Shown here in pieces: positions 4,106-34,376 of a stretch of 64,000 nucleotides of DNA; within the stretch, counting starts at the first letter, position 1, and every line of letters starts with the position of its first letter. A program made the translations under genes and the position numbers. The notes under the pieces were generated by a model. It did not search any database. It was not told where the DNA came from and saw nothing but the letters and a program-made list of their open reading frames with translations. The DNA comes from Celeribacter baekdonensis (lineage in GTDB: Bacteria > Pseudomonadota > Alphaproteobacteria > Rhodobacterales > Rhodobacteraceae), in contig NZ_CP028475.1 in NCBI RefSeq assembly GCF_003047105.1, positions 3,100,001 through 3,164,000 on the forward strand. The letters are read 5' to 3'.

Positions 4106-5052
4106 ATGAGAAAAGAATCTGTGGTTTTTGCAGCCGGGGTGCTGCGTCGTGAGGCCCATTTGCGGCCAGATGCCAAGTCGCTTTGGGCCCAAAAAAATGC
4201 TTTGATCGTACCGTTTTGGCACAAAATGCCATTGATGCGGCAGGCGGGCGGACTTGCGTTTTGCACAACCGAAGATCCCGCGTTTGATCCCGACAAGCAC
4301 CCCTGTCTGTTCTTAGGCCTCTCAGACGAGAATGCGCCGATTTTTGCGGTCGATGTTGACGATTGGAAGGGTGCCATACCGACAGATGAGGCCGTGATGC
4401 CATGGTCGGGGGTGCCGTTCCCTGTGCAGAAATCGAAGGGACGGAGTTTCATGATTTGAGGTCGCTGATGACCCAGTTGACCCCTTGGGAGGCTGAGGTC
4501 GCGGCAACGGCACGCGGTATTTTGGAATGGCACGGGCGGCATAGGTTTTGTGCCAATTGCGGTGCGCCCACAAAGATGTCCGATGGTGGTTGGCGGCGCG
4601 ACTGTGCGGCCTGCTCGGCGCACCATTTTCCGCGTACGGATCCTGTGGTGATCATGTTGGTGACCCATGGAAATTCCGTACTTTTGGGCCGCAATGCAGC
4701 CTGGCCCGAAGGGATGTATTCGCTTTTGGCCGGGTTCATGGAACCGGGCGAGCCGATTGAGGCCGCCGTACGGCGCGAGGTTTTGGAAGAATCGGGGGTG
4801 GTCATTGGCGCGGTCGACTATGTCGCCAGTCAGCCATGGCCCTTTCCCGCCTCGTTGATGATTGGCTGTCGGGCTGAGGCGTTGACGCGCGAGATCACGC
4901 TGGATCCCAATGAGCTTGAGGATGCGCTTTGGGTGACCCGCGAGGAGCTATCTGTTGCGATGGCCGGGCTGTCCGATAAAATTCGCCCGGCCCGAAAAGG
5001 CGCATTGGCGCAATTTCTTCTGACCAAGTGGCTTGCAGACTGTTGGGAATAA
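4106..5052 (+). CDS. nudC: NADH pyrophosphatase / RNA-decapping Nudix enzyme, frameshifted
   Basis: NudC cleaves NAD(H) to NMN(H) and AMP and can remove NAD caps from RNA. The protein is split: the N-terminal domain reads in one frame to 4459, and the rest reads in another frame to 5052. Adding one G to the G5 run at 4408-4412 joins them (...MPWSGGAVPCAEIEG...). The joined protein has the zinc ribbon CxxC (FCANCG) ... CxxC (CAACSA), a perfect Nudix box (GFMEPGE...REVLEESGV) and the NudC hallmark SQPWPFP. ATG 4106 is chosen because MRKESVVFAAGVLRREAHLR resembles relatives' N-termini; ATG 4094 or 4010 is possible, and no site has a clear ribosome-binding sequence. Probably intact in the organism. 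Confidence 0.85.
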
Positions 5053-5094
5053 CGGGATAACATGGGCCGGGGCAGTGATCACAAGTGAGTTGGC

Positions 5095-5568
5095 ATGAAA
5101 TTTTCGACCCGTCAGGACATTGAAGCACCGGCAGAATTTGTCTTTGAACGCCTTGTTGATTTTGAGGGCTTGGAGCGTCAGGCGATGCGGCGTGGCATCA
5201 ACGTCAACCGTAAATCGCCCAGCCAGCCGCGTGGGGTTGGTGCCGGTTGGACGTTGAAAGTTCCGTTTCGAGGGAAATTGCGCGATTTGGTCGCTGAAAT
5301 CCGCGAATATGATGCGCCCAACGGTTTGATGGTCGACGCGAAATCAGGTGGGTTGGACATGATTTTGACCGCTGATCTTTTGGCACTTTCGCCGCAGCGC
5401 ACGCGTATGACGCTTGGCTATGACGTGCGTCCGAACACATTGTCGGCGCGGATTCTGGTTCAGTCGGTGAAATTCGCAAAGGGCACATTGCAAAAGCGGT
5501 TTGAAACCCGCGTTTCAAAATTTTGCGACCATTTGGCGGATGAGTACCTAGGCGCGTCCAAAAGATAA
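5095..5568 (+). CDS. SRPBCC (START/polyketide-cyclase-like) family protein
   Basis: A 157-aa single-domain protein with the pattern of the SRPBCC hydrophobic-ligand fold: N-terminal strand (MKFSTRQDIEAPAEFVFERL), central strands with VGAGWTLKVPFRGKLRDLVAEI, and a long C-terminal helix ending DHLADEYLGASKR. No signal peptide or membrane segment, so cytoplasmic. It follows nudC by 42 bp on the same strand and is likely co-transcribed. No ligand or reaction can be assigned; its conservation next to nudC is the only functional hint. Confidence 0.75.
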   Translation: MKFSTRQDIEAPAEFVFERLVDFEGLERQAMRRGINVNRKSPSQPRGVGAGWTLKVPFRGKLRDLVAEIREYDAPNGLMVDAKSGGLDMILTADLLALSPQRTRMTLGYDVRPNTLSARILVQSVKFAKGTLQKRFETRVSKFCDHLADEYLGASKR

Positions 5569-5583
5569 TTCGGAACGCGCCTA
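5549..5583. terminator. hairpin between convergent SRPBCC and pheA genes
   Basis: Perfect 9-bp inverted repeat TAGGCGCGT (5549-5557) / ACGCGCCTA (5575-5583) with a 17-nt loop, spanning the end of the SRPBCC gene. Placed where a shared terminator for convergent genes would be, but no T-tract follows on either strand. Confidence 0.45.
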
Positions 5584-5597
5584 AGAGTTGTCCATGT

Positions 5598-6427
5598 TTA
5601 GGTCCGACGCGGGTCAGCCGGATAGACGCCTAAAATCTCAACCATTTCAGTGAAATACCCCAATTCATCTAGCGCGCGGCGCACGTTTTCGTCGTCGGGA
5701 TGGCCTTCGATATCGGCATAAAACTGTGTTGCGGTGAAAACCCCGTCGACCATGTAGCTTTCCAGCTTGGTCATGTTGACGCCATTGGTGGCAAAGCCCC
5801 CCATCGCCTTATACAGCGCAGCCGGGAGGTTGCGGACGCGGAACATAAAGGCGGTGACCATTTTGTCGGCGCGGCGGGTATAATCGGCTTCGCGTGCCAT
5901 GATGAGAAAACGAGTGGTGTTGAGTTTGTGGTCTTCAATATGGCGGGCCAGCACATCAAGTCCGAAAATTTCACCAGCCAATTCTGAGGCGAACGCCCCG
6001 ATCTCCGGGTTGCCCTCTTCTTGAACGGATCGTGCGGCGGCGGCGTTGTCAGACCAATTGATCGTTGTCAGGCTATGGTCGCGCACAAAGCCACGGGCCT
6101 GCCCCAAAAGCACGGACATGGCACGCACCTGTTTGATGTCGGATGTTTTCGTGCCGGGAAGTCCCAAAAGGTTCACATGCACGCGCACGAAGGTCTCATC
6201 AATGATGTGCAGGCCTGATTCTGGCAAAAGGTGATAGACGTCTTGCACCCGTCCATAGGTCGAATTTTCGACCGCAATCATGCCAAGATCAGCCGCCCCG
6301 AGCGCACAGCCTCCATCGCATCCTCAAAGGTCGGGCAGGGCAGGGGCTCAAACGCGGGGCGCGCTTCACAGCATGCTTGATGGGAATATGACCCCAGTTC
6401 TCCCTGAAATGCGATGCGTCCGGTCAT
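5598..6427 (-). CDS. pheA: prephenate dehydratase, frameshifted
   Basis: Converts prephenate to phenylpyruvate in phenylalanine synthesis. ATG 6427 has an AAGGGG site and begins MTGRIAFQGELGSYSHQAC, the normal enzyme N-terminus. The frame breaks at a C4 run (6296-6299, plus strand): the frame from 6427 hits a stop soon after, while the second frame resumes with MIAVENSTYGRVQDVYHLL. One extra base gives ...AVRSGAADLGMIAVENST..., the expected catalytic-domain sequence. The C-terminal ACT domain carries the phenylalanine site (NLPAALYKAMGGFATNGVN then LESYMV). This is the monofunctional dehydratase type, without chorismate mutase. Divergent from cycM. Confidence 0.9.
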
Positions 6428-6549
6428 TTTCGACCCCTTTTGTCTCATAGTTTTGCGCTAACTTGCGTGGGTGACGGTCTTATACCTTGAAATGCACTAG
6501 GGGAAGCGGGTAGATAGCGCGCGACGAATGCATATAAACGGAACGCGAC

Positions 6550-7071
6550 ATGTTCAACACTATGACCATCACCAAGGTCGTCGGCGGCCTTTGCGGCACC
6601 TTCTTGATCTTCCTCTTTGCCAATTGGGCTGGGACCTCCATCTACTCGATGGGCGGCGCTGGTCATGATGGCGAACACGCCCAAGCCTATGTCATCGCGA
6701 CAGGCGAAGAAGATGCCGCCCCGGCAGAAGAGGTGGTCCAAGTGAGCTTTGACGAGCTTTTGGCCTCTGCTGACGTTGCGAAAGGCGAAAAAGTCTTTTC
6801 CAAATGCAAGGCCTGCCACAAAGTGGACGGCACCAACGGCACCGGTCCGCACCTTGATGGCGTGTTCGAGCGTGTCGTCGCAAGCGTCGATGGGTTCACC
6901 TACTCCGACGGCATGATGGCCCACGGTGGCGCCTGGACACCCGATGCGCTCAACGAATTTCTGCTCAACCCGAAAGGCGTTGTTTCGGGCACCAAAATGT
7001 CTTTCGCAGGTCTGCCGAAGATCGAAGATCGCGCCAATCTCGTGGCCTATCTTCAGTCGATCTCTGGCTGA
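6550..7071 (+). CDS. cycM: membrane-anchored cytochrome c (CycM/c552 type)
   Basis: Electron carrier of the respiratory chain, anchored to the inner membrane with its haem domain in the periplasm; in related bacteria it links the bc1 complex to terminal oxidases. 173 aa: an uncleaved hydrophobic anchor (about residues 8-28), a flexible acidic/Ala-Pro linker, then a class I cytochrome c fold with CKACH haem attachment (about residues 87-91) and the distal Met in GTKMSFAGL. Start ATG 6550. Divergent from pheA, followed by its own terminator, so monocistronic. No FNR box in the 122-bp divergent promoter region, unlike the oxidase genes further on. Confidence 0.9.
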
Positions 7072-7100
7072 TCTCAACAGATCGCGCCTGATTGCATCAC

Positions 7101-7135
7101 AAACCCCCATTGGCCGTGTGCCAGTGGGGGTTTTC
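7101..7135 (+). terminator. intrinsic terminator of cycM
   Basis: AACCCCCATTGG / CCAGTGGGGGTT stem (one T-G wobble) with a 7-nt loop followed by TTTTCTT, about 30 bp after the cycM stop. Strong Rho-independent terminator. Confidence 0.88.
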
Positions 7136-7278
7136 TTATGCAAACTCTTACGCGCTTGGGTGCGATCACGGTTTTTCGATGTGTTGTAACTTGCATGTGG
7201 GCGTGTCGACACATTACCGTCGCACAGAGCAAGACGCGCCGCCCAATGGCGCATCCACAACACTTTCGGAGGTTCCAT

Positions 7279-9143
7279 ATGTTCGCACGCCCCGCTTTTC
7301 GCACAGGTTTCCCGATCTTGGCCCTGTTGGCGCTTTTGGGGGGGCTGCGAAAGCTGAGGACACGATCACACGCACATGGTTCACCGATTGGGATACGGTG
7401 AAATATTCCGAACCCTTTGACCACCTCGATTACGTCAACCCAGATGCGCCCAAAGGTGGCGACATCGTTTTGGGCACGGTTGGCACCTTTGACAGTATGA
7501 ACCCCTTCTCTACCCTGTCAGGGACGCCCGCAGCTTTGTCGTCGACCCCGTATGAGCGGTTGATGGACGGGACGGCGGATGAGTTCACCGGGGCTCAGTA
7601 CTGTCTTTTGTGTGAAACCTTGGAGTATCCTGAGAGCCAGGAGTGGGTGATTTTCCACCTGCGCAAGGATGTGACCTTTTCTGACGGCACGCCGATGACC
7701 GCCGAGGATGTGGTGTTCACTCATAACAAATTCATCAACGAAGCCACGCCATCATGGCGCGCGGGCGTCAGTGCGATGATTGCGAAAGTCGAGGCGCTTG
7801 ATCCCTATACCGTCAAATTCACCTTTCAACCGGACATCCCACGCAAAGGGTTGATCGGACAGGCCGGGTCGACTTTGGTGATGCAAAAAGCGTGGTTTGA
7901 CGCCCATGACGCCAAGTTGGATGAGAAACGTTTCGATGTCTCTCCCGGCACAGGGGCCTATATGTTGGACAGCTACGACGCCGGCCAATGGGTGAAATAC
8001 AAACGCAACCCGGATTATTGGGGCATCAAACATCCGCTCAAAGTCGGGCGCGAGAATTTCGACACCATCAAGGTGATCTATTTCGGCGATACGATTGCGG
8101 CGTTTGAGGCGTTTAAATCGGGTGAGATCACGTTCCGCCAAGAAACCTCGTCTTTGAATTGGGCCACCGGTTATGATTTTCCGGCTCTGGAAAAGGGCTG
8201 GGTGATCAAAGCCACACTTCATGATGGCTCACTGCCCGGCGCGGCCGGATTTTTGTTCAACCTGCGCCGGGACAAGTTTCAGGATCGCAATGTGCGTTTG
8301 GCGCTTGGGTTGATGTATAATTTCACATGGACCAATGACACGTTGCAATACGGGCTGTTCAAACAGCGCGAAAGCTTTTGGGAAACACCGCAGCTCAAGG
8401 CCACAGGCCTGCCTGAGGGCAAAGAATTGGCCTATCTTGATGAGGTCCGCGACATGGTCCCGCCTGAGATTTTCACCGAAGAGGCGTTTTTGCCTCATAC
8501 GTCGGGCGAACGCTCTTTGGACCGTCGCAATTTGCGTAAAGCTTTGGCTTTGTTAGAGAAGGCCGGATATGTCCCCGGCGATGATGGCAAGTTGCGCAAT
8601 GCCAAGGGCGAGACGCTGGATGTTGAATTCCTGCATTACAACCCGGCGTGGGATCGCATCATCAATCCCTATATCGAAAATCTTGTCGCGTTGGGCGTGA
8701 ACGCCAGCTACAACCGCGTCGATGCGAACCAGTACCAAGCCCGAACCCAAAGCTTTGATTACGACATGATCTACAGCGGCTATGCGAACGGGTTTGAGGA
8801 AGGGTCAAGCTTTGATCAGAAATACGGATCTGACAATGTGAACGACGTGTTCAACCCGGCGGGTCTGTCTGATCCGGCGATTGATTATCTGGGCAAACGC
8901 TTGTTAGAGGTCGAAAGCTATGACGATATGGCCGCCGTTGTGCGTGCTGCCGACCGGATCATGCGCTACGACTATTTCATTGTTCCCGCGCATATGAACG
9001 ACGCATTTTGGGTGGCCTATTACAACATGTATGAGCACCCGTCCGAGGATAAAATGCCACCGCTTGATCTGGGCTATCTGGATTTTTGGTGGGTCAATGC
9101 CGACAAAGAGCAGGCGCTCAAAGCCGCCGGCGCGTTGAAATAA
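7279..9143 (+). CDS. yejA: peptide ABC transporter substrate-binding protein (YejA type), frameshifted
   Basis: Family 5 extracellular solute-binding protein of the YejABEF importer, which in enterobacteria takes up oligopeptides and microcin C-like compounds. The signal peptide starts at ATG 7279 (GGAGG site): MFARPAFRTGFPILALLALL. The frame then breaks at the G7 run 7338-7344; one more G gives ...LLGGAAKAEDTITRTW, joining signal peptide and mature protein. Mature family marks are YVNPDAPKGGDIVLG, SMNPFSTLSGTPA and FHLRKDVTFSDGTPMTAEDV. About 621 aa, normal for YejA. First gene of yejABEF; no obvious terminator between it and yejB, unlike the other importers here. Confidence 0.9.
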
Positions 9144-9161
9144 GCAGTCAGGACAATCCCG

Positions 9162-10262
9162 ATGGGAGCCTATATTTTAAGGCGCATTTTGTTGATCATT
9201 CCGACCCTTCTGGGCATCATGATCCTCAATTTCGCGCTCACCCAATTCGTGCCCGGTGGCCCTGTCGAACAGGTCCTGGCCAATATGCGTGGCGAAGGCG
9301 ATGCCTTTGCCTCCTTTACCGGCGGTCAGGGCGATGCGGGCCAAAACATGGATGTGCTCGACGGCAATGGCTATGAAAGCGAATATGCCGGGGCACGCGG
9401 TCTTCCGCCCGAGTTCATTCAGGATCTGGAACGTCAATTCGGTCTTGATAAGCCGCCTTTGGAACGCTTCCTCTCGATGATGTGGAGCTACATGCGGTTT
9501 GATTTTGGTGAGAGCTATTTCAAATCCGAGAAGGTGCTTGATCTGGTCTGGGACAAGCTGCCTGTGTCGATCACCCTTGGGCTTTGGGCGACGTTGATTT
9601 CCTATTTGATCTCGATCCCTTTGGGCATTCGCAAGGCCGTGCGTGATGGATCAAGCTTTGACACATGGACCTCGGGCATCATCATCGCCGCCTATGCGAT
9701 CCCCGGATTTCTCTTTGCGATCATGCTCTTGGTGCTGTTTGCGGGCGGGTCTTATTGGCAAATCTTCCCCCTGCGCGGTCTGACCTCGCCGAATTGGAGT
9801 GAGATGACGCTGGTTGGCAAGGCGTTGGACTACCTGTGGCACATTGCTCTGCCGGTGCTGGCCTCGGTGGTTTCGTCCTTTGCCACGCTTACGCTGTTGA
9901 CCAAAAACTCCTTTCTCGATGAAATCCGTAAACAATATGTGGTCACCGCCAAGGCCAAGGGTCTGTCTGAGTCCCGCGTCCTCTACGGCCATGTGTTCCG
10001 CAATGCGATGTTGATCGTGATCGCGGGCTTTCCGGGGTTGTTTTTGGGCGTGTTCTTTGGCGGGTCGGTTATCATCGAAACGCTGTTCTCGCTCGATGGT
10101 TTGGGGCGTTTGGGCTACCAAGCTGCGCTTGAACGTGACTATCCGGTGATCTTTGGCACGTTGTTTTTCTTTGGCCTCATCGGCCTGTTGATCGGCATCC
10201 TCTCCGACCTGATGTATGTCTTTGTCGATCCGCGTATCGACTTTGAAAAGAGGGACACATGA
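9162..10262 (+). CDS. yejB: peptide ABC transporter permease YejB
   Basis: Inner-membrane permease of the YejABEF importer (366 aa). It has the DppB/OppB-type N-terminus (MGAYILRRILLIIPTLLGIM), then a YejB-type periplasmic insertion (about residues 40-90), then five further membrane segments with the coupling-loop sequence VTAKAKGLSESRVLYGHVFRNA, which docks on the ATPase. The C-terminus is LMYVFVDPRIDFEKRDT. Its stop overlaps yejE by 4 bp (ATGA), so translation is likely coupled. Confidence 0.93.
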   Translation: MGAYILRRILLIIPTLLGIMILNFALTQFVPGGPVEQVLANMRGEGDAFASFTGGQGDAGQNMDVLDGNGYESEYAGARGLPPEFIQDLERQFGLDKPPLERFLSMMWSYMRFDFGESYFKSEKVLDLVWDKLPVSITLGLWATLISYLISIPLGIRKAVRDGSSFDTWTSGIIIAAYAIPGFLFAIMLLVLFAGGSYWQIFPLRGLTSPNWSEMTLVGKALDYLWHIALPVLASVVSSFATLTLLTKNSFLDEIRKQYVVTAKAKGLSESRVLYGHVFRNAMLIVIAGFPGLFLGVFFGGSVIIETLFSLDGLGRLGYQAALERDYPVIFGTLFFFGLIGLLIGILSDLMYVFVDPRIDFEKRDT

Positions 10263-11365
10263 CACTTTCCCCCCTCAACCAACGCCGCTGGCGCAACTTC
10301 CGTGCCAACCGCCGCGCGTTTTGGTCGCTGATCCTGTTCTCGATCCTGTTCGGCCTGTCGCTCTTTGCCGAGTTTCTGGCCAATGACAAACCGATCCTCG
10401 TGCAATACCGCGGCAACTATTACATGCCGATTTTCAATTTCTACCCGGAAACCGAATTTGGCGGCGATTTCAGAACCGAGGCCGTCTATCGCTATGCCGA
10501 GGTGCAATGTTTGGTCAAAACTGGCGGTATGGTGGACTGTTTCGACGATCCTGACGCCCTGATCGAAGATGCCAAGGACGGCGTCATCAACGGGGACAAG
10601 ATCGAGAAAGGCTGGATGCTCTGGCCGCCGATCCGCTATTCGTTCAACACCCAAGTTGAGGGGCCGGGGGCCGCGCCCTCGCCGCCGACCTCACAAAACT
10701 GGCTGGGCACGGATGACACCAAGCGCGATGTTGTCGCACGGGTGATTTACGGCTTCCGCCTGTCGGTGTTCTTCACCTTGATCGTCTCGGTGCTTTCGTC
10801 TTTCGTGGGTATCATCGCAGGCGCGCTTCAGGGGTTTTTTGGCGGCCGTACCGACCTGATTTTTCAACGGATTTTGGAGATTTGGGGTGCGATGCCGTCG
10901 CTCTATGTGATCATCATCCTGTTTGCTATTTTGGGGCGAAGTTTCTGGCTTTTGGTCATGGTCACCATCCTGTTTGGCTGGACCGCCTTGGTCGGCGTGG
11001 TGCGGGCCGAATTCCTGCGGGCGCGCAATTTCGAATATATCCGTGCCGCCCGCGCGCTCGGCGTCTCCAACGGCACCATCATGTTCCGCCACATGTTGCC
11101 CAACGCCATGGTTGCCACTTTGACAATGCTGCCCTTTATTGTGACGGGCAACATTGGCACGCTGGCGTCGCTCGATTTTCTCGGCTTCGGCTTGCCCTCG
11201 TCCTATCCCTCATTGGGCGAAATGACGCTTCAGGCCAAACAGAACCTTCAGGCGCCTTGGCTGGGCTTCACCGCCTTTTTCACCTACGCCATCATGCTTT
11301 CGCTGCTTGTCTTTATCTTTGAAGGCGTGCGCGATGCTTTTGACCCGAGAAAGACCTTTCGATGA
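10259..11365 (+). CDS. yejE: peptide ABC transporter permease YejE
   Basis: Second permease of YejABEF (368 aa). The YejE-specific N-terminal half is present: RRAFWSLILFSILFGLSLFA, then a large periplasmic segment (YRGNYYMPIFNFYPETEFGG ... WPPIRYSFNT). The DppC-like core has the coupling motif IRAARALGVSNGTIMFRHML and the C-terminus FEGVRDAFDPRKTFR. Overlaps yejB upstream and yejF downstream by 4 bp each. Confidence 0.94.
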   Translation: MTLSPLNQRRWRNFRANRRAFWSLILFSILFGLSLFAEFLANDKPILVQYRGNYYMPIFNFYPETEFGGDFRTEAVYRYAEVQCLVKTGGMVDCFDDPDALIEDAKDGVINGDKIEKGWMLWPPIRYSFNTQVEGPGAAPSPPTSQNWLGTDDTKRDVVARVIYGFRLSVFFTLIVSVLSSFVGIIAGALQGFFGGRTDLIFQRILEIWGAMPSLYVIIILFAILGRSFWLLVMVTILFGWTALVGVVRAEFLRARNFEYIRAARALGVSNGTIMFRHMLPNAMVATLTMLPFIVTGNIGTLASLDFLGFGLPSSYPSLGEMTLQAKQNLQAPWLGFTAFFTYAIMLSLLVFIFEGVRDAFDPRKTFR

Positions 11366-12984: not shown

Positions 12985-13009
12985 CAATTTCAGTCTCTCT
13001 CACTGTTGA

Positions 13010-14574
13010 TCAGGACGGGCCGATGGGGGCACAATCGGTGCCGCGCGCTTCCAACCGGCGACATGTCATCGCGGCCAAATCTTCGGTCAGTCCGAGGAAA
13101 TTCGCGTCATAGCCACGTTTGGTTTTGACCACTTTGCGCAGCGCCCCATCAAGCATTTCGATCTCTGTCAGCGCGGTGCGCAAGAGCTCTTTGCGGGCTT
13201 CATATTCCGAGCCATACGTGCCGATATTGATGCCCCAATGGCGGCTGCCAGAGGTCGAGATCCGCGTCACCACTTCGGGCCCGGTCGGGATCGGATCGGC
13301 GGACACAGCGGATGTGGGTTCGATTGAGGCGAGTTGTAATTTTTCAGGTGTCTCGTAGCGTGCCGGGCGCAGGATCGGCGCGATAGCGGGTATCGTGGGC
13401 GCGGTTTGCGCGCGTGTGGCTTCTGCCGCTAAAATTGTGCTCGCTTCCACCGTGGCCTCGGTCGCTGCGGCCAAAAGCGCGGCCTCCTGATTGGCTTTTT
13501 CCAAGGCCGAGAACACATCAGCAGAGGCAGCCAGCAACATTTGCTCATCCTCGGGGCTAATTCGCGCATTGGTCGGGCTTTCGGGATCGGGCTTTTGGCC
13601 ATATTGATGCTCACCCGCACGATTTTCGACGCCACTTTCGGGGCAGTTTCGCCCTTGGCCACCATGATAGCTGCGCCACCAACCTTACCCAAATAGGGTG
13701 GTTTTTTCGGTTTGATGACAGAGACATTTGTTGGCGCGCGTTTGAACCCAAGGTCCATCAATTCGGTCACTTTGGCGTTGCGCGCGGCTGTCGAGCGGCC
13801 GCCAAAGACGGTCGTGATGATCCGCTCATTGCCATGCTGTGCCGAGGCCACAAGGTTAAACCCTGCCGCCGCAGTGTAGCCGGTTTTGATGCCATCTGCG
13901 CCGGGATAGGCGCTTAGAAACCGCGAGTTGGTATGGGTGACGGTGGTCACACCCGCGTCGGCGGTTTTGCGCGAAAAGATGTTGTAATATTCCGGGTAAT
14001 CATAAAACACATGGCGCCCCAAAACGGACATGTCGCGGGCGGTAGACAGGTGACCTTCTTCGGTCAGGCCATTGGCGTTTTTAAACGTGGTGCGCGACAT
14101 GCCAAGCTCTTTGGCCGTGCGATTCATCCGGCGGGCAAATGCGGCCTCGGAGCCTTCGATGGCCTCGCCGATGGCGGTGGCAGCATCGTTGGCAGATTTC
14201 ACGGCGGCGGCGCGGATGAGGTAGCGCAGTTTGATTTTTTGACCGGCCTTGAGGCCCAATTTCGAGGGCGGCTCTGAGGCGGCATTGCGCGACACGGTGA
14301 CGAGGGTATCGAGGGTGATTTCACCATGTTCGACTGCCTCAAAAGCGATGTAGAGCGTCATCATCTTGGTCAGCGAGGCCGGGTGCAGTCGGGTGTCGGC
14401 ATTGGTCGCGTGCAACACTTTGCCGTTGCGCGCATCCATCACCAGCGCGGCATATTCCGCCGCCATCATCTTTGCCGACATTGCGATTGTCATCGCAAAG
14501 GCGATCAAAATAAGAGGGAAAATACGTCTTGATACGGCACGCAGGACTCCCCGCGCTTGCACGTTGCTCATCAT
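13010..14574 (-). CDS. D-alanyl-D-alanine carboxypeptidase with C-terminal SPOR-like domain, frameshifted
   Basis: Penicillin-binding protein 5/6-like peptidase S11 that trims peptidoglycan stem peptides in the periplasm. Start ATG 14574, a hydrophobic signal segment (about residues 17-38), then the three active-site motifs: SLTK (PASLTKMM), SAN (VKSANDAA) and KTG (DGIKTGYTAAAGFN). The frame breaks at a GGG run (13589-13591, plus strand). One extra base gives AKSPDPESPTNARISPEDEQ and joins the second half, which ends in a SPOR-like domain (RHWGINIGTYGSEYEARKEL ... LDGALRKVVKTKRGYDANFL). SPOR domains bind denuded septal glycan, so a division-site role is inferred. About 521 aa when repaired. 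Confidence 0.88.
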
Positions 14575-14775: not shown

Positions 14776-15479
14776 TCAGAGGCCGAGCGTTTCGATGAGT
14801 GTCGGCAGGGCCCCCAAATCACCCAGTTCACGGTAGCGTGGGTGATTATTGGGCGCCTCCGCATGTTCGATTTCCCAGGTCCAGTTGTGTGGAATGAACA
14901 CGCCCCACGCCCCGGCTTCAAGCGGCGGCAGCACATCGGACTTCATCGAATTGCCCACCATCATCGCAGCTTCGGGGCGACATTGTGCCGTGCGAAAATG
15001 CTCGCATAGACCTCGGGCGTCTTGGCGGAGACGATTTCGACCCCATCAAACAGATCGCCCAAACCGGACTGTGCCAATTTGCGCTCCTGATCCAACAGAT
15101 CGCCTTTGGTCACCAACAGGATTTCATGCTGTTCAGCGAGGGCGCGCACGGTCTCTTCGACGCCATCGAGCAGGTGGATCGGGTGCCGCAACATCTCCTG
15201 TCCGGCGGCGATCAAGTCGGCGATGACGGAGGCGGGGACCTTTTGATCCGTCACCTCTATCGCGGTTTCGATCATCGACAAGACAAAACCTTTGATGCCG
15301 AATCCATAGTGGCCAAGGTTGCGTCGCTCTGCGGCCAAAAGCCGGCGTGCCAAGTGATCCCGTTCGGTGTAATTGGCCAAAAGATCGGCGAATCGCTCTT
15401 GGGTCAGGCGAAAAAACGCCTCATTTTCCCAAAGCGTGTCATCCGCATCGAACGCGATTGTCGCGAGTTTGACAGACAT
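14776..15479 (-). CDS. HAD-family hydrolase, frameshifted
   Basis: Haloacid-dehalogenase superfamily phosphatase, about 233 aa when repaired. Motif I is IAFDADDTLWENE (nucleophile Asp and the +2 Asp); the cap is helical (C1 type); motif II is ILLVTKGDLL. The frame ends early with ARHNVAPKLR, and the acidic motif resumes in another frame as MMVGNSMKSDVLPPLEAGAW. One extra base in the G4 run 14974-14977 (plus strand) gives ARHNVAPEAAMMVGNSMKSD, the usual sequence. ATG 15479 has a GGGAG site. Substrate unknown. Divergent from clpS. Confidence 0.85.
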
Positions 15480-15596
15480 ATGCTAAGCTCCCTTTACCCG
15501 TTTTGGCATAACCCTCTTTATTCATGCGAAAAAGGGTCTATATAACGCCAATCAAGACCGTAAGTTTGTGCAAAATCCAAAATCGGAGACGCCAGA

Positions 15597-24366: not shown

Positions 24367-24382
24367 AAACGCGAGCGCACCT

Positions 24383-25231: not shown

Positions 25232-26071
25232 TCAGTGCGACATCAACACCGGGATATCCGCCAATTCCAACATGTGGCGGGTTGCACCCCCCAAGATCGA
25301 TTCGCGGAAGCGGGAATGGCCATAAGCCCCCATCACCAAGAGATCGGCGTCCTTGTCTCGCAGTTGACGGCAGAGCACGTCAGAGACACGCGGCATGGTT
25401 TTGGCCAAAACCGACACTTCGGCGCGCACGCCGTGACGCACCAACATTTGACACAGCGAGCCACCCGGATCAGAACGATCAGGACCGTGTTGTGGTGGGT
25501 CGATGATGGTGATGTCCACGATATCGGCTTTTTGCAGAATCGGCAGAGCGGAACGCACAGCGCCCAAGGCTTCGGCGCTCTCATTCCACGCGACGACGAC
25601 GCGTTCGATGTTTTGCGGCACATCGGCGGTGTCGGGGACAACGAGAACCGGAACATGGCCTGAGAACAGCGCGGCTTCCAAGATTTCTTCGTGTTCGTGG
25701 CTGCGGCCCGGACCGTAAGGGCGGGGCAGAACGACAACATCAGAGAAACGCAGGAAATGTGCGAGCTGTGGAGTCAGACCGGCCATTTGCGCAGTCAGCG
25801 GGTTGGTCATCCAAGAAATCTCTTGGGTTTTCATGAAGTCCGTGACCTGAGCCTCAATCTCGCGGCTTTCCGTTTGGGCCTGTTGTAGATTGTCCTGCAA
25901 AGCCATCGCATTGGTGCCAGCATAGTAAAAGCCGGGTTGCGTGCGATCGAGGCCCAGACAAATCACGTCAAGATGCCCGTCTTCGCGGCGAGCCAGAGCG
26001 GTTGCAGCCTCAAGGGCATGACGATCCGCATCCATGTTGCAAATGATGGTTGTAATAGTTTTAAAAGGCAT
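25232..26071 (-). CDS. uspA: tandem universal stress protein
   Basis: Two-domain UspA-family protein (279 aa). The C-terminal domain keeps the nucleotide loop G-x2-G-x9-G-(S/T): VMGAYGHSRFRESILGGAT. The N-terminal domain has lost it. ATG 26071 has a GGAGG site. A perfect FNR box lies 67 bp upstream, so low-oxygen induction is likely; a usp gene between fnrL and ccoN is also the arrangement in Rhodobacter relatives. Biochemical role unspecified. Confidence 0.88.
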   Translation of the reverse strand: MPFKTITTIICNMDADRHALEAATALARREDGHLDVICLGLDRTQPGFYYAGTNAMALQDNLQQAQTESREIEAQVTDFMKTQEISWMTNPLTAQMAGLTPQLAHFLRFSDVVVLPRPYGPGRSHEHEEILEAALFSGHVPVLVVPDTADVPQNIERVVVAWNESAEALGAVRSALPILQKADIVDITIIDPPQHGPDRSDPGGSLCQMLVRHGVRAEVSVLAKTMPRVSDVLCRQLRDKDADLLVMGAYGHSRFRESILGGATRHMLELADIPVLMSH

Positions 26072-26137
26072 GGCGACCTCCGTTCGGGAATTGCGTCATT
26101 TCGACCTAAACAATGCGCCTGTGTGCGCAACGGGGCT

Positions 26138-26151
26138 TTGATTGAGATCAA
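26138..26151. promoter_or_regulatory. FNR box upstream of uspA
   Basis: TTGATTGAGATCAA, a perfect match to TTGAT-N4-ATCAA, centred about 74 bp upstream of the uspA ATG. Confidence 0.85.
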
Positions 26152-26328
26152 CAAATTTGAGAGCCGCGGCGATTTGCGCGGGGGTTCATTTAAATTTAAC
26201 TATGTAAAAGGACTAAGGGAGCGCAAACTAAGGCGCGAACCGGGCTGTTTTTATAATATTCAGCCCTTTGAGGAACGAATGCGGACAACATACGAAATTT
26301 GGGCGAGAAATCCCTTTCTCACGATGCT

Positions 26329-26342
26329 TTGACTCAGATCAA
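26329..26342. promoter_or_regulatory. FNR box upstream of ccoN
   Basis: TTGACTCAGATCAA, one mismatch from consensus and the same TTGAC variant as in the hemN-fnrL site. It lies 104 bp upstream of the ccoN start, compatible with class II activation of a promoter with a long leader. Confidence 0.82.
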
Positions 26343-26446
26343 GGAGGCTCGCCCCGATGTCGTTCAAACCGCAAACTGTCGAGACCTGTGCCAAACACGG
26401 GGCGACATGCCTAACGTAAATGGGCATCAGAACGAAGGGACGCAAC

Positions 26447-28042
26447 ATGTGGAACTACATTAAGTTGGCAGTGCTGGGGATCGCCGTGGTCCTATTCGGC
26501 CTTGCTGCAAACTACGGGCGCGATTTTGGCTATCAAGTCCACGCGCTTATTTTCATGGCCGCGGCGGCCATTACATTCATCTACACCCTGCGGACAACAG
26601 GCGACGTCAAAGCACAGCCCGAAGGCTACTTTGATGGCGTCGTGCGCTACGGTGTTATCGCAACTGCCGGCTGGGGCGTTGTGGGCTTCCTGGTGGGGAC
26701 GTTTATTGCCTTCCAGCTCGCTTTTCCGAGCCTCAACTTCGAGTTCCTGCAAGGTCACGGCAACTTTGGACGCTTGCGTCCGCTGCACACCTCTGCGGTG
26801 ATTTTCGCGTTTGGCGGCAACGCCTTGATCGCGTCGTCTTTCTACGTGGTACAACGCACCTCCGCGGCACGCCTGTTCGGTGGCGGTCTTGGGTGGTTTG
26901 TGTTCTGGGGCTACAACTTGTTCATCGTGCTGGCGGCGACGGGGTATGTCTTGGGTGTGACCCAATCCAAAGAATACGCTGAGCCGGAATGGTACATCGA
27001 CCTGTGGCTGACCATCGTTTGGGTCGCTTATCTCGTCACCTTCATGGGCACGATCTTTAAGCGTAAAGAAAAGCACATCTACGTGGCGAACTGGTTCTAC
27101 CTGTCGTTCATCGTGACCATCGCGATGCTGCACATCGTCAACAACCTGGTGATCCCTGTCTCCTTCCTGGGCTCGCGCTCTGTGATGGTGATGTCTGGCG
27201 TTCAGGATGCGATGACGCAGTGGTGGTACGGTCACAACGCTGTGGGCTTCTTCCTCACCGCAGGTTTCTTGGGCATGATGTACTACTTTGTGCCGAAACA
27301 AGCCGAGCGTCCGGTGTTCTCCTACAAACTGTCGATCATTCACTTCTGGGCTTTGATCTTTCTGTACATCTGGGCTGGTCCGCACCACTTGCACTACACC
27401 GCTCTGCCGGATTGGGCTTCGACCCTCGGTATGGTGTTCTCCATCGTGCTATGGATGCCGTCCTGGGGTGGTATGATCAACGGTCTGATGACGCTGTCTG
27501 GCGCATGGGACAAGCTGCGCACCGACCCGGTTATCCGGATGATGGTGATCTCCGTGGGCTTCTACGGCATGTCGACCTTTGAAGGTCCGATGATGTCAAT
27601 CCGCGCCGTGAACTCTTTGTCTCACTATACCGACTGGACCATCGGCCACGTGCACTCCGGTGCTTTGGGCTGGAACGGTATGATCACCTTCGGTGCTCTC
27701 TACTTCCTCACCCCGCGCCTGTGGAACCGGGATCGTCTCTATTCGCTTGGCCTCGTGTCCTGGCACTTCTGGCTCGCCACCATTGGCATCGTGTTGTACG
27801 CGGCATCCATGTGGGTGACGGGTATCATGGAAGGCCTGATGTGGCGCGAAGTCGACAGCCAAGGTTTCCTCGTGAACGCCTTTGCCGACACCGTGTCCGC
27901 CAAACATCCGATGTATGTGGTTCGTGCGATGGGTGGGGTTCTCTATCTCACTGGTGCACTCATCATGTGCTACAACCTGATCATGACTGTGCGTCGTAGC
28001 CCTGCAAAAGCAGACGTTCCGGCCATGGCTCCGGCCGAATAA
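26447..28042 (+). CDS. ccoN: cbb3-type cytochrome c oxidase subunit I
   Basis: Catalytic, proton-pumping subunit of the high-affinity oxidase; integral inner-membrane protein, 531 aa from ATG 26447 (GAAGGGA site; an in-frame ATG at 26420 is less likely). Haem and CuB ligands are visible: low-spin haem His in [17 protein letters not shown], CuB His in [11 protein letters not shown] and [13 protein letters not shown], and the haem pair in [14 protein letters not shown]. The family's cross-linked Tyr is expected in the YGHNAV region. First gene of ccoNOQP. Confidence 0.97.
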
Positions 28043-28057
28043 GGGAGGGTTTAAACA

Positions 28058-28783
28058 ATGGCTCTCATTGACAAGCATAAGATCATTGAAACCAACGGCA
28101 CCCTCCTTATGGTCGGCGCACTTTTGGTGGTCACCATTGGCGGGATCGTAGAGATCGCCCCCCTTTTCTACCTCGAAAACACCATCGAGGATGTCGAAGG
28201 CGTGCGTCCCTATTCCCCGCTTGAACTGACCGGTCGTGAAATCTACGTCCGCGAAGGCTGCTACGTCTGTCACTCTCAGATGATCCGCCCGATGCGCGAC
28301 GAAGTAGAACGGTACGGCCACTACTCTCTGGCAGCGGAGTCGAAATACGACCACCCGTTCCAGTGGGGCTCCAAACGCACCGGCCCGGATTTGGCCCGTG
28401 TGGGCGGTCGCTATTCCGATGCGTGGCATGTCGATCACATGACCGATCCACAGTCGGTGGTGCCTGAGTCGGTTATGCCGAAATATGGCTTCCTCGCGGA
28501 TCGTTATATCGACGCGGAATACATTCAGGACCTGATGTCGACTCATCGGATCGTGGGTGTGCCCTACACCGACGAAATGATCGAAGTGGCGCAAGCGGAC
28601 TTTGCCGCGCAGGCCGATCCCGACAGTGACTATGACGGGTTGATGGCCCGTTATCCCAAAGCCGTTGTGTCCAACTTCGACGGTCAACCCGGTATCACTG
28701 AGATGGATGCTCTGATCGCCTACTTGCAGATGCTTGGCACATTGGTCGACTTCTCGACCTTTACGCCTGATGCATCGCGCTAA
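28058..28783 (+). CDS. ccoO: cbb3-type cytochrome c oxidase subunit II (mono-haem cytochrome c)
   Basis: 241-aa membrane-anchored c-type cytochrome that feeds electrons to CcoN. N-terminal membrane helix (about residues 15-37), haem motif [12 protein letters not shown] with the conserved partner region [20 protein letters not shown], and the axial Met in [14 protein letters not shown] 28058 follows GGGAGGG. 15 bp after ccoN. Confidence 0.97.
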
Positions 28784-28793
28784 GGGGCATGTG

Positions 28794-28973
28794 ATGGACT
28801 ATCATATCCTTCGTGAATTTGCCGACAGCTGGGTGCTGCTTGCGATGTTCGTGTTCTTTGTCGCGGTGATTGTCTGGGCGTTCCGCCCGGGCTCGCGCAA
28901 AGAATATCAAGACGTCTCGACCAGCATCTTCCGCAACGAAGACACACCCGCCGAAAAGGAGGCGAGGACATGA
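28794..28973 (+). CDS. ccoQ: cbb3-type cytochrome c oxidase subunit IV
   Basis: Small single-span subunit (59 aa) that stabilises the oxidase. MDYHILREFADSW, one hydrophobic helix (LLAMFVFFVAVIVWAF), then the CcoQ tail FRPGSRKEYQDVSTSIFRNE. ATG 28794 has AAGGGG. Overlaps ccoP by 4 bp. Confidence 0.94.
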   Translation: MDYHILREFADSWVLLAMFVFFVAVIVWAFRPGSRKEYQDVSTSIFRNEDTPAEKEART

Positions 28974-29818
28974 GCAAAAAAGATGTGGAAACAACAGGCC
29001 ACTCCTGGGATGGGATTGAAGAACTCAACAACCCCCTCCCACGCTGGTGGTTGATGGTCTTTTATGCCTGTATCATTTGGGCCATCGCTTACTCGATCGC
29101 GATGCCTGCATGGCCGGGGATCAAAAGTGCAACTGCTGGGATGCTTGGCTGGTCCACTCGGGCAGAAGTGGCCAAAGACATCGCCTCGTTTGAGGAGATG
29201 AACGCGGGCGTGAACGCCGAGTTGGCCTCTGCCGATGTCACGACAATCGATGTGAACTCGGATCTGCACAACTACGGCGTCAACATGGGTGCCGCTGTGT
29301 TCCGGGCCAATTGTTCTCAGTGCCACGGTTCCGGTGCTGCCGGCAACGTCGGCTATCCGAACCTTTTGGACAACGATTGGCTTTGGGGGGGGACGATTGA
29401 TGAGGTCGCCTACACCATCCAACACGGTGTGCGAAACGAAACCGATGAGGCGCGCTACTCCGAGATGCCGCGTTTTGGCGCTGACGAGTTGCTTGAACCG
29501 GCTCAGATTGATCAAGTGGTTGAATATGTCCTGTCGCTGTCCGGTCAGGACAACGATGCGGCCATGGCCACCGAAGGCGCCGTTGTGTTCGCTGACAACT
29601 GTGCGGCGTGCCACCTTGAGGACGGCACGGGCGACATCTTCCAAGGTGCGCCGAATCTGACCGACGCGATTTGGCTCTATGGTGGCGATCGTGCCACCAT
29701 CAAAGAAACCGTCACCAACGCCCGTTTTGGCGTGATGCCGGCTTGGGGTCAGCGTCTGTCTCAGGCTGAGGTCAACGCGGCCGCGCTTTACGTCCACCAA
29801 CTGGGCGGCGGCCAATAA
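28970..29818 (+). CDS. ccoP: cbb3-type cytochrome c oxidase subunit III (di-haem cytochrome c)
   Basis: Entry point for electrons from cytochrome c. 282 aa: N-terminal helical segment WWLMVFYACIIWAIAYSIAM, then two cytochrome c domains with CSQCHG and CAACHL and distal Met residues in SEMPRFG and GVMPAWGQRL. The N-terminal sequence SWDGIEELNNPLPRWW is the CcoP-specific motif. Last gene of ccoNOQP, followed by a terminator. Confidence 0.97.
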   Translation: MSKKDVETTGHSWDGIEELNNPLPRWWLMVFYACIIWAIAYSIAMPAWPGIKSATAGMLGWSTRAEVAKDIASFEEMNAGVNAELASADVTTIDVNSDLHNYGVNMGAAVFRANCSQCHGSGAAGNVGYPNLLDNDWLWGGTIDEVAYTIQHGVRNETDEARYSEMPRFGADELLEPAQIDQVVEYVLSLSGQDNDAAMATEGAVVFADNCAACHLEDGTGDIFQGAPNLTDAIWLYGGDRATIKETVTNARFGVMPAWGQRLSQAEVNAAALYVHQLGGGQ

Positions 29819-29910
29819 GCTATAGGAATCCGGGCGGCAACGCCCGGGTTGCGGCACTGACCCTTGATCCTGTTCGCGCGTTTCTTCAGGGTTGGTGCCA
29901 ACAAACGACA

Positions 29911-29946
29911 ACAAAGCCGCGCTCTTGAAGGGTCGCGGCTTTGTTT
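29911..29946 (+). terminator. intrinsic terminator of ccoNOQP
   Basis: ACAAAGCCGCG (29911-29921) / CGCGGCTTTGT (29934-29944), then TT. An additional stem CCGGGCG/CGCCCGG without a T-tract lies nearer the ccoP stop. The first is the likely terminator. Confidence 0.85.
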
Positions 29947-30042
29947 CCATTTGATGTCGCTTCGCTCCTCTATGAGGGGCGGCAGGATGTCACAGGAAAA
30001 AGAAACTTTTTTGATGCATCTTTAGGAGCGAGTCTAAAAATC

Positions 30043-30056
30043 TTGATCCACATCAA
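30043..30056. promoter_or_regulatory. FNR box upstream of ccoGHIS
   Basis: TTGATCCACATCAA, a perfect match to TTGAT-N4-ATCAA, 64 bp before the proposed ccoG start. It shows the assembly genes have their own oxygen-controlled promoter in the roughly 300-bp gap after ccoP, whose only other content is the ccoP terminator. Confidence 0.87.
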
Positions 30057-30120
30057 GGCTCCATAAAGGTCTCCCCCCCATTAAGGGGAAAACGCGAACT
30101 CTGCGAAAAGGCAATGCTCC

Positions 30121-31565
30121 ATGAGCTCTACCGATACCCCCCCGAAGACAAACTTTACGCTGCCCGTGAGCCGATCTTTCCGCGTCGCGTGAAAGGCTAT
30201 TTCCGGACCCTCAAATGGGTCATTATGGCGGTCACTTTGGGGATTTATTATCTCTCGCCTTGGATTCGTTGGGATCGTGGTCCGCAATTGCCGGATCAGG
30301 CGATTCTCATCGACCTCGCCGGTCGTCGCTTTTACTTCTTCTGGATCGAAATCTGGCCGCATGAATTTTACTTCATTGCAGGCCTGTTGATCATGGCCGG
30401 GCTTGGCCTGTTCCTGTTTACCTCGGCTGCGGGGCGCGTGTGGTGTGGCTATGCCTGCCCGCAAACCGTATGGACCGACCTGTTTATCCTCGTTGAGCGC
30501 TGGATCGAAGGGGATCGCAACGCGCGCCTGCGGTTGCACCGTCAGAAAAAATGGGACCTGCGTAAAGTTCGCCTGCGGATCGTCAAATATATTTCGTGGA
30601 TTGTGATTGGTCTCGCGACCGGCGGGGCTTGGGTGTTTTATTTCACCGATGCCCCAACGTTGTTGGTTGACCTTGTGACGGGCCATGCCCATCCGGCGGC
30701 CTATTTGACCATGGGTGTTTTGACCGCCACCACAGTCTTTTTCGGCGCTATCGCCCGTGAACAAATCTGTATCTACGCTTGCCCATGGCCGCGGATTCAG
30801 GCCGCGATGATGGACGAAGACACGCTGACTGTGGCTTACCGCCATTGGCGCGGCGAACCGCGTGGCAAACACCGCAAGGGCGCAGGCGCGGACCAATTGG
30901 GGGATTGCATCGACTGTATGGCCTGTGTGAACGTCTGTCCAATGGGCATCGACATCCGCGATGGTCAGCAACTCGAATGCATCACCTGCGCGCTCTGCAT
31001 TGATGCCTGCGATGACATGATGGACAAAATCGGCAAGCCGCGGGGCCTGATCGACTATATGGCGCTGACTGATGAGCCGCGCGAAATCTCCGGCGAGCCG
31101 ACAAAACCGGTGTGGAAACACATCCTGCGCCCGCGTACGATCCTGTACACCGTGCTTTGGGCCGCTGTTGGATTTGGTCTGGTCTTTGCTCTCTTTATTC
31201 GCTCGGACATCGACATGACCGTCGCCCCCGTACGCAATCCGACCTATGTCATGCAATCCGATGGGGCGATCCGCAATATTTACGACCTGCGTTTGCGCAA
31301 CAAACATGGCGAAACGCGTGAGTTCCGCGTGAGCGTCTCTGGCGACGCCAACTTGACGGTGACGTTGCAGGGCGGCGACACTACGGCGGGCGATACTATT
31401 GCAGTGAACGCCGATGAAATGCGCATCGTGCGGGCCTATGTTGAGGCACCCGCAGGGTCCGACGCCGCAAATTCCGAACGCGAAGAGTTTTCGTTCTGGG
31501 TCGAAGATGTGGCAAGCTCCGAACGGGTCTCCGTCGACTCGGTCTTCAACGGCAAAGGAAACTAA
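30121..31565 (+). CDS. ccoG: cbb3 oxidase assembly iron-sulfur protein CcoG, start region frameshifted
   Basis: RdxA/FixG-type membrane protein implicated in copper reduction/delivery for cbb3 assembly. Two 4Fe-4S sites: CIDCMACVNVCPMGIDIRD and LECITCALCIDACDD; further Cys in WCGYACPQTVW and CIYACPWPR. Several membrane segments and a C-terminal periplasmic Ig-like FixG domain. The uninterrupted frame begins at ATG 30114 (MLHELYRYPPEDKLYAAREP), but AAAAGG is only 3-4 nt away. Adding one C to the C7 run 30137-30143 gives instead MSSTDTPPEDKLYAAREP from ATG 30121 with better spacing and a usual CcoG N-terminus. I prefer that reading. Confidence 0.92.
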
Positions 31566-31568
31566 ACC

Positions 31569-32024
31569 ATGCGCGAAATCACTGGCAAACATGTTCTCAT
31601 TGGGACCGTGTCCGCCTTTACCGTGATCATCGGGGTCAATATTTTCATGGCGGTTCAGGCCGTGCGGACCTTCCCCGGTCTCGAGGTCAAAAACTCCTAT
31701 GTTGCCTCGCAGACCTTTGATCACGACAAGGCGTTGCAAGAGGCGCTGGGGTGGACCATCGAGGCCGATGATGAAGATGGCAAACTGTACATCTTTATCC
31801 GCGATGCGAATGGCAACCCGGTGGAAGCCGCCGAAATGGGCGGCACACTGGGCCGGGCCACCAATGTTGTCGAGGATCAAACGCCTGAATTTACGTTTAA
31901 CGGGGAGGCGTATGTGGCCGAAACCGGGGTGCTGGCTGAGGGCAATTGGAACTACCGGATGGTCGCCACCGCACAGGATGGGACGCCGTTCAAACAGCGT
32001 GTTATCATTCACGTCAAACGCTAA
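31569..32024 (+). CDS. ccoH: cbb3 oxidase biogenesis protein CcoH/FixH
   Basis: 151-aa membrane-anchored protein needed for stable cbb3 assembly. N-terminal membrane helix (VLIGTVSAFTVIIGVNIFMA), then FixH marks AVRTFPGLEVKNSYVASQTF and a beta-rich periplasmic domain ending RVIIHVKR. Starts 3 bp after ccoG. Confidence 0.93.
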   Translation: MREITGKHVLIGTVSAFTVIIGVNIFMAVQAVRTFPGLEVKNSYVASQTFDHDKALQEALGWTIEADDEDGKLYIFIRDANGNPVEAAEMGGTLGRATNVVEDQTPEFTFNGEAYVAETGVLAEGNWNYRMVATAQDGTPFKQRVIIHVKR

Positions 32025-32041
32025 CCGAAAAGAGGCCCCGG

Positions 32042-34222
32042 ATGTCTGAGGTTCAGATTTCGGCCTGTCCCGCCTGTGTGGCGGGACCAGCCGCAAAGGA
32101 TGTTGCTCATGCACGTGATGTGCGCGACACCCGGTTTGTGCTCTCTTTGCCCGCGATTTATTGTGCGGCCTGTATTTCCGGCGTCGAACGCGAGTTGACC
32201 AAACAGCCCGGTGTGCGCGCAGCAAGGGTCAACTTGACGCTCAAACGCGCACATATTGAGGCGGACGAAGACGTCTCTGTCGACGATCTCGTGGGGGCGC
32301 TGACCCGCGCCGGATATGAGGCCTATGAACTCGACGCGGGCGCGATTTCGGCGACTGAAACCGACCGCCGAGGCCGCGCCATTCTGACCCGCATTGCCGT
32401 GTCCGGCTTTGCCATGATGAACGTCATGCTTCTGTCGGTCGCGGTCTGGTCCGGGGCCTCAGATGTCACGCGCGACATGTTCCATTGGATCTCTGCCGCC
32501 ATCGCGCTCCCGACCATCGCCTATGCCGCTCAGCCGTTCTTTTTCTCAGCCCTCACCGCTCTTAAAGCCAAGCGCCTCAACATGGATGTGCCGATTTCCT
32601 TGGCCATCCTTTTGGCGGGCGGCATGTCTTTGTATGAGACCTTTGAATCCGGCGCGCATGCCTATTTCGACGCCGCTTTGTCACTGACCTTCTTTTTGCT
32701 TGCGGGCCGGTATCTGGACTACCGCACTCGCTCCGTCGCCCGCTCTGCCGCCGAAGAACTCGCCGCCCTCGAAGTCCCGCGCGTGACCTTGGCCGATGGT
32801 CGGGTGATCTCGATCACCGAGGTTGAAAAGGGCGCGTTGATCCGTGTTGTCCCCGGCGCTCGCGTGCCCGTGGACGGGATCGTCATGGACGGCGCCTCTG
32901 AGGTGGATCGCTCTTGGTTGACAGGGGAAAGTCTTCCCGCGCTGGCCGAGGTGGACACGATCGTGTCCGCCGGAGAAGTCAATCTGACCGGGCCTTTGGT
33001 GGTTAAAGTCACAGCGGCGGGCGAAGACAGCTCACTGCACCGCATGGCCGATTTGGTGGCGATGGCTGAAACCTCGCGCAATCGCTACACCTCTTTGGCG
33101 GACCGCGCCGCGCGGATTTATGCGCCTGCGGTTCACCTTTTGGCGCTTGGCGCGTTCATTGGCTGGATGATTGCCACGGGGGGGGACGTTCGTCATGCCC
33201 TGAACATCGCTGTGGCCGTGTTGATCATCACCTGTCCCTGTGCATTGGGCCTTGCCGTGCCTGCGGTCACCACCGCCGCCTCTGGCCGATTGTTCCGCGC
33301 CGGGATGTTGATCAAATCCTCCACGGCACTTGAACGTCTGGCCGAGGTTGATACCGTGGTTTTCGACAAAACGGGCACCTTGACCGAAGGTCGCCCCGAA
33401 CTGTCAAATCTGTCCGACATCCCGCCGCGTGCCCGTGGCATCGCCATGGCTTTGGCATCTGGTTCGGCGCATCCTTTGTCCTTTGCGCTGTTTGCCGCGA
33501 CGCGCGCCGCCGATGTCATTCCCGCCAAACTGACCGACATTCGCGAAGTGCCGGGGCAGGGGATTGAGGCGCGTTATGATGGTTCGTCGGTGCGACTGGG
33601 CCGTGCGGCATGGCTCAATGCCGTGGCCAAGCCCCAAACTGCCACCTATCTTAAAATCGGCGATGAGACCCCTTTGGCCTTTACCTTTGTTGACCATTTG
33701 CGTGATGGCGCGGCTGAGGCAGTGGCAGCGCTCAAACGCCAAGGCAAAGATGTTGTGTTGTTGTCGGGTGATACCGCTGCGGCTGTGGCCGACATTGCAC
33801 ATCGCGTCGGAATCGCCGCATGGGATGCCGATTGCTTGCCCGAAGGCAAAGCCCTGCGCGTTGCCGAACTCACCCGGTCTGGCCGCAAAGTGTTGATGGT
33901 CGGGGATGGTCTCAATGACACCGCCGCCTTGGCTGCCGCTCATGTGTCGATCTCTCCAGCCTCCGCCCTTGAGGCCACGCGGGTCGTCTCCGACATGGTG
34001 CTTTTGGGCAAATCGCTCGCACCGTTGGGCGAGGCGACGCGCGTTTCGATTTCTGCCACCCGCCGCATCAAAGAAAACTTTGCCATTGCGGCAGGCTACA
34101 ACATGATCGCCATTCCGATTGCTTTGGCGGGCTTTGCCACCCCATTGGCCGCAGCCCTTGCGATGTCGGTCAGTTCCATCACGGTCTCGCTCAACGCGCT
34201 GCGCCTCAGAGGTAAATCATGA
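32042..34222 (+). CDS. ccoI: cbb3-specific copper-transporting P1B-type ATPase CcoI
   Basis: Exports Cu(I) across the inner membrane to load the CuB site of CcoN. 726 aa from ATG 32042 (AGAGG site). N-terminal Cys pair CPAC, then an HMA domain with CAAC (PAIYCAACISGVE), membrane helices, TGES actuator motif, metal-site CPC (IITCPCALGLAVPA), phosphorylation site DKTGTLTEG, ATP-site HP (SAHPLS) and hinge GDGLNDTAAL. All catalytic residues present. Overlaps ccoS by 4 bp. Confidence 0.96.
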   Translation: MSEVQISACPACVAGPAAKDVAHARDVRDTRFVLSLPAIYCAACISGVERELTKQPGVRAARVNLTLKRAHIEADEDVSVDDLVGALTRAGYEAYELDAGAISATETDRRGRAILTRIAVSGFAMMNVMLLSVAVWSGASDVTRDMFHWISAAIALPTIAYAAQPFFFSALTALKAKRLNMDVPISLAILLAGGMSLYETFESGAHAYFDAALSLTFFLLAGRYLDYRTRSVARSAAEELAALEVPRVTLADGRVISITEVEKGALIRVVPGARVPVDGIVMDGASEVDRSWLTGESLPALAEVDTIVSAGEVNLTGPLVVKVTAAGEDSSLHRMADLVAMAETSRNRYTSLADRAARIYAPAVHLLALGAFIGWMIATGGDVRHALNIAVAVLIITCPCALGLAVPAVTTAASGRLFRAGMLIKSSTALERLAEVDTVVFDKTGTLTEGRPELSNLSDIPPRARGIAMALASGSAHPLSFALFAATRAADVIPAKLTDIREVPGQGIEARYDGSSVRLGRAAWLNAVAKPQTATYLKIGDETPLAFTFVDHLRDGAAEAVAALKRQGKDVVLLSGDTAAAVADIAHRVGIAAWDADCLPEGKALRVAELTRSGRKVLMVGDGLNDTAALAAAHVSISPASALEATRVVSDMVLLGKSLAPLGEATRVSISATRRIKENFAIAAGYNMIAIPIALAGFATPLAAALAMSVSSITVSLNALRLRGKS

Positions 34223-34376
34223 ACGTCCTCGTCTATCTGATCCCAATCTCGCTTTTGCTCGGGGGATCGGACTTGTCGCGTTTTTCTGGTCGCTTCGGTC
34301 GCGTCAGTATGATGACCCTGAAGGGGACGCACGGCGCATCCTGACGGGCGATTACGACGATCATCCAAAAGAGTGA
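34219..34376 (+). CDS. ccoS: cbb3 oxidase maturation protein CcoS, frameshifted
   Basis: Small single-span protein required for haem/copper insertion into cbb3. ATG 34219 gives MNVLVYLIPISLLLGG, then the frame goes wrong at the G5 run 34261-34265. One extra G gives LLLGGIGLVAFFWSLRSRQY followed by DDPEGDARRILTGDYDD, a typical CcoS including the acidic tail. 52 aa repaired. Overlaps ccoI; last gene of ccoGHIS. Confidence 0.9.

Follow-up and report, generated by a model that had tools for sequence, protein, structure and literature searches.

G/C homopolymer under-calling as the very probable cause of seven interrupted genes in the Celeribacter baekdonensis LH4 assembly

The window considered here is a stretch of 64,000 nucleotides of the Celeribacter baekdonensis LH4 chromosome (G000:C4:3100001-3164000; positions given without a contig refer to this window). 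Seven of its genes change frame at a G/C run, and in each case the nucleotide alignment shows the loss of one base relative to the nearest relative, G012. These breaks are in all likelihood consensus errors left behind in an assembly made from long reads only, caused by under-calling of G/C homopolymers; the living cell, whose DNA would be predicted from the comparison to carry the longer runs, almost certainly has all seven genes intact. This explanation is supported by the PacBio-only origin of the assembly, the restriction of the shortening to G/C runs, the spread of the breaks over four chromosome blocks, and the indispensable genes that are hit. In the proposed mechanism, consensus calling would sometimes write a G/C run one base short (n-1 instead of the true n), the more frequently the longer the run, and such one-base under-calls would put about one gene out of frame every 15 kb in the compared blocks.

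Seven interrupted genes and their relatives

Four of the genes lie on the forward strand. In nudC, a name taken from the sequence-only reading, the break (4408) falls at a called run of five G (4408..4412), and the two frame pieces extend over about 4070-4450 and 4408-5049; the gene occupies a single frame in all five relatives. yejA (ATG 7279, stop 9143) is broken at 7344, beside a called run of seven G (7338..7344) so near the start that the start and the remainder of the gene are in different frames. In ccoG (ATG about 30121, stop 31565), a called run of seven C (30137..30143) precedes the break at 30144; the start used by the relatives is out of frame with the remainder of the gene, and nucleotide alignment finds eight C in four of the five relatives against seven in the window. 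The short ccoS gene (34219-34376) has a called run of five G (34261..34265) and a break at 34266. The other three are on the reverse strand: pheA (5598-6448), with a called run of four C (6296..6299; four G in the gene sense) and a break at 6300, near codon 51, where G012 has a run of five; dac, encoding a D-Ala-D-Ala carboxypeptidase (13010-14574; called G4/C4 run 13553..13556; break 13556); and a gene for a HAD hydrolase (about 14776-15479; called G4/C4 run 14974..14977; break 14974). The sequence-only reading had described runs of 3-7 bases; in gene order from nudC to ccoS the called lengths are in fact 5, 4, 7, 4, 4, 7 and 5.

When the G012 proteins are searched against the translated window, six of the seven genes come out in two frames. 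ccoG appears in a single frame from residue 7 onward, because its run starts in the sixth codon. It had also been claimed that one added G or C repairs every gene. The one-base loss holds for all seven; the base absent from LH4 relative to G012 is the run's own base in four (pheA, HAD, ccoG and ccoS). In the other three (nudC, yejA and dac), the absent column is A or T, and it is therefore presumably, rather than visibly, a run base that is missing there. Family searches give matches for pheA, dac, HAD, ccoG and ccoS, and for yejA the family support covers its substrate-binding domain only. The closest named record to the pheA product is from Celeribacter halophilus (93%; records from the same genome may have been left out).

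Despite their breaks, yejA keeps an open reading frame of 683 residues (7092-9143) and ccoG one of 483 residues (30114-31565), both with a false start. In these two genes automatic annotation may hide the error behind a wrong start rather than flag a pseudogene.

Almost all of the window can be aligned with G012, at 89-91% nucleotide identity. When the seven G012 proteins were searched against four further relatives (G007, G003, G001 and G008), all 28 gene-genome pairs were in one frame; as G012 is the query source, its seven self matches complete the count of five relatives out of five with uninterrupted orthologs. A comparison with close relatives had been proposed as a check on the breaks, and its outcome agrees with the sequence-only reading. 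At the nudC break, nucleotides were compared with G012 alone. A translated scan with G012 open reading frames of at least 60 residues did not show the breaks in yejA, ccoG and ccoS, owing to a chance open reading frame upstream, a break close to the start and a gene of small size; these three are shown by nucleotide alignment and by the search with the relatives' proteins.

Two further length differences in the window were not counted as gene breaks. The first, in an A run at 15579, passes the strict rule given below, and is upstream of the likely start of its gene, in a stretch whose length varies among the relatives; the second, at 32029, is intergenic. A duplicate of the region was also considered and rejected, pheA having one match in the genome.

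Spread over the chromosome and the genes affected

LH4 was compared with G012 over 648,225 aligned LH4 bases in four chromosome blocks (218,631, 153,655, 154,004 and 121,935), plasmids excluded. The fixed rule applied asked for an open reading frame of at least 45 residues across the gap in one of the genomes and five or more mismatches on either side, half or more of them in third codon positions; the coding score had to reach at least 4. Under this strict rule LH4 has 38 breaks of net -1, of which 34 are beside a G/C run of at least four, and two of net +1, both away from such runs; two of net +2 and one of net -8 make up the remaining strict LH4 breaks. With G012 as the broken side there are five strict calls, namely three of net -1 (two beside a G/C run) and two of net +1. 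The mirror case, in which LH4 is one base longer beside such a run and the frame is open in LH4, occurs twice, with low scores (4.3 and 5.5).

The set of minus-one breaks beside a G/C run comprises 42 sites, 36 found by the fixed rule and six added by hand. The latter adjoin gene ends, and three of them are in the window (yejA, ccoG and ccoS). Two of the 42 sites have runs of only three. Two further strict -1 sites, with no G/C run within three bases, were dropped (44 are listed), and five weak-scoring rows were left out of the counts. The resulting rate is one break per 15.4 kb, equivalent to about 287 gene breaks if constant over the 4.44 Mb genome; this pooled rate leans high because the block around the window was chosen for the finding, and some of the listed sites may be real differences. 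With 15, 9, 12 and 6 sites in the four blocks, the breaks are spread rather than confined to a single locus.

Ordinary, independent pseudogene formation in the seven genes would fit frames that are truly interrupted in the assembly. All seven breaks share one direction and one base type, breaks recur at about one per 15 kb across four separate blocks, and indispensable genes (glmM, folA and lysA, see below) are among those broken. On these grounds this explanation deserves next to no credence, and the earlier judgement that independent pseudogenisation is unlikely gains from the wider comparison.

All seven breaks precede 34.4 kb, and the earlier observation that none follows holds within the window. 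A further candidate, added by hand, is situated just past the window's end (C4 3166179), near a gene end. The absence of later breaks had been tentatively put down to coverage differences, an explanation that is not needed. With 42 sites, a 30 kb stretch has a probability of 0.17 of containing none, the observed maximum of seven in 30 kb is reached in 15% of 2000 random placements, and 34 bins of 20 kb have a mean of 1.21 and a variance of 1.50 (dispersion p 0.16), all without correction for unaligned gaps. The zero-site probability and the frequency of such a cluster mean that the edge at 34.4 kb calls for no special cause. Called five-base G/C runs number 24 in positions 1-34400 of the window (70 per 100 kb), compared with 130 per 100 kb upstream, 111 in positions 34401-64000, 131 just downstream and 97 in the G012 counterpart; given this lower count, a locally higher error rate is conceivable.

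The identity of the broken genes is informative. Phosphoglucosamine mutase (glmM) is present only in pieces in LH4, and other matches in the genome reach 27-30% identity. Dihydrofolate reductase (folA), identified by a best match below the model's curated cut-off, is likewise only in pieces and has no other match in the genome. Diaminopimelate decarboxylase (lysA) has two breaks and survives only in pieces, with other matches again at 27-30% identity. An LptF-like permease, whose match is just below its cut-off, is also broken. glmM, folA and lysA are normally indispensable to a free-living Gram-negative cell. Since LH4 grows in culture (PMC5958252), breaks in such genes would hardly be tolerable if real.

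Both subunits of NAD(P) transhydrogenase also look broken, at G000 C4 1648372 and 1649268, about 0.9 kb apart; the beta subunit has a family match just below the cut-off, and the alpha subunit was judged by eye from its protein.

Base, length and context of the affected runs

A same-base comparison of isolated one-base changes, in which the longer run has at least four bases, separates G/C from A/T runs. In G/C runs LH4 is shorter in 26 cases and longer in 6; in A/T runs it is shorter in 14 (including window position 15579) and longer in 13. Leaving aside the counted frame breaks, 11 of the 26 shorter G/C runs remain, to set beside 6 longer ones.

This asymmetry bears on the possibility that LH4 is a true mismatch-repair mutator that has lost mutL, with the breaks as recent, real homopolymer deletions. 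mutL (G000 C4 2947478-2949096) is indeed split into two frames in LH4 and in one piece in all five relatives (the base-level comparison being with G012 only), and the rate of breaks climbs with run length, as a mutator would have it. A mutator is also expected to change A/T runs and to lengthen runs, neither of which agrees with the near balance in A/T runs and the excess of shortening in G/C runs. In a living mutator, indispensable genes would be expected to have been spared, yet glmM, folA and lysA are each broken and the genome has no close second copy of them. mutS gives one match with no stops. The mutL break itself is at a GGGG run before C, which is the class seen most often at the other sites. 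A mutator is thus very improbable, and the mutL split is probably the same under-calling artefact; on the strength of it, LH4 could be mistaken for a mutator.

The dependence on length can be put in rough figures. By true run length, the inferred miscalls are 16 of 1023 runs of five, 13 of 167 runs of six, 5 of 39 runs of seven and 6 of 11 runs of eight, rates that are rough and too low (the numerators are gene breaks in 648 kb and the denominators come from 884 kb) and that assume each counted break to be a run called one base short. On this rough count most G/C runs of five and six are unaffected, and the effect is partial. The systematic under-calling put forward by the sequence-only reading is thus strongly supported as a tendency, but it is not deterministic. 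LH4 was also checked for an overall deficit of long G/C runs and showed none, though called five-base runs are few in positions 1-34400 of the window.

Context also plays a part. Of the 16 runs called as four, read in the G sense, 15 have a C directly after them and 12 a C directly before, whereas C follows 1525 of the 3027 GGGG runs overall, or about half. This bias might reflect polymerase kinetics or base modification. A single trigger motif was considered and rejected: TCGGGGGC is only partly depleted, with 58 occurrences in LH4 (884 kb) and 79 in G012 (836 kb), and the context is therefore a bias and not a rule.

A different account would accept hundreds of real minus-one deletions in G/C runs and have the frame restored by transcriptional or translational slippage, which would explain why the cells live despite hits in indispensable genes. 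Slippage normally requires longer runs, and 16 of the affected sites have runs called as only four. The seven genes are uninterrupted in all five relatives, and the pattern fits a known consensus error, as the available text of PMC4832174 describes it. Slippage is accordingly an exceedingly remote prospect beside consensus under-calling.

Origin of the assembly, and consequences

The assembly that contains the window is taken to be the published LH4 assembly of PMC5958252. It comprises 4,436,768 bases in six contigs (C4, 3,586,785; C1, 420,560; C2, 123,420; C3, 127,457; C5, 64,040; C6, 114,506), each exactly 100 bases below the size given in PMC5958252, perhaps through trimming at submission. 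According to the same paper, PacBio RS II reads were assembled with HGAP 3.0 in SMRT Analysis 2.1, at about 215x chromosome coverage and 99.99% consensus concordance, and no short reads are described (PMC5958252). That genome paper does not mention such breaks. The available part of PMC8874975 gives an average nucleotide identity of 74.6% between LH4 and the C. baekdonensis type strain, and the species name therefore looks wrong. The word 'frameshift' is absent from the accessible portion of a paper that names Celeribacter baekdonensis LH4.

SMRT Analysis 2.1 is older than the P6 chemistry, and the LH4 consensus may have been called with an unsuited model. A close precedent, as far as the available text goes, is Streptomyces albus SM254, sequenced with P6-C4, assembled with HGAP v3 at 262x and polished with Quiver to QV > 50; Illumina reads then corrected 205 indels, 'nearly all' of them in G or C homopolymers (PMC4832174). 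The assembler generation, the high coverage and the G/C-homopolymeric nature of the leftover indels are shared with LH4; unlike LH4, for which no such step is described, SM254 was Illumina-polished (PMC4832174, in the part available). In that same text the 205 indels belong to 7.17 Mb, compared with the extrapolated 287 or so gene breaks in the 4.44 Mb of LH4. The accessible text on Kastor reports that homopolymer deletions in long-read assemblies inflate counts of frameshifted pseudogenes; as in those cases, the LH4 breaks are revealed by comparison with relatives (PMC12007338). The main example in the same text is a nanopore assembly whose errors fall more often on A/T than on G/C runs, in contrast to the bias in LH4, which is G/C only.

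Points that count against an artefact include the coverage of about 215x, the split of mutL, the listed sites with a run of three or none, the strict calls on the G012 side or of other net change, and a case elsewhere in which PacBio-only assembly sufficed. In the last of these, a Streptococcus pyogenes assembly from PacBio reads alone was fully equal to the hybrid one, according to the available text of PMC7363880, and such errors are therefore not inevitable.

The artefact is ordinary, partial and G/C-specific, and extends across the four chromosome blocks tested. Since this genome represents its species in the collection searched, its errors can spread into comparative work. Claims of gene loss, pseudogenes or auxotrophy drawn from the LH4 assembly, as for phenylalanine, lysine, folate or cbb3 oxidase assembly, are unsafe, and the finding is a caution rather than a discovery.
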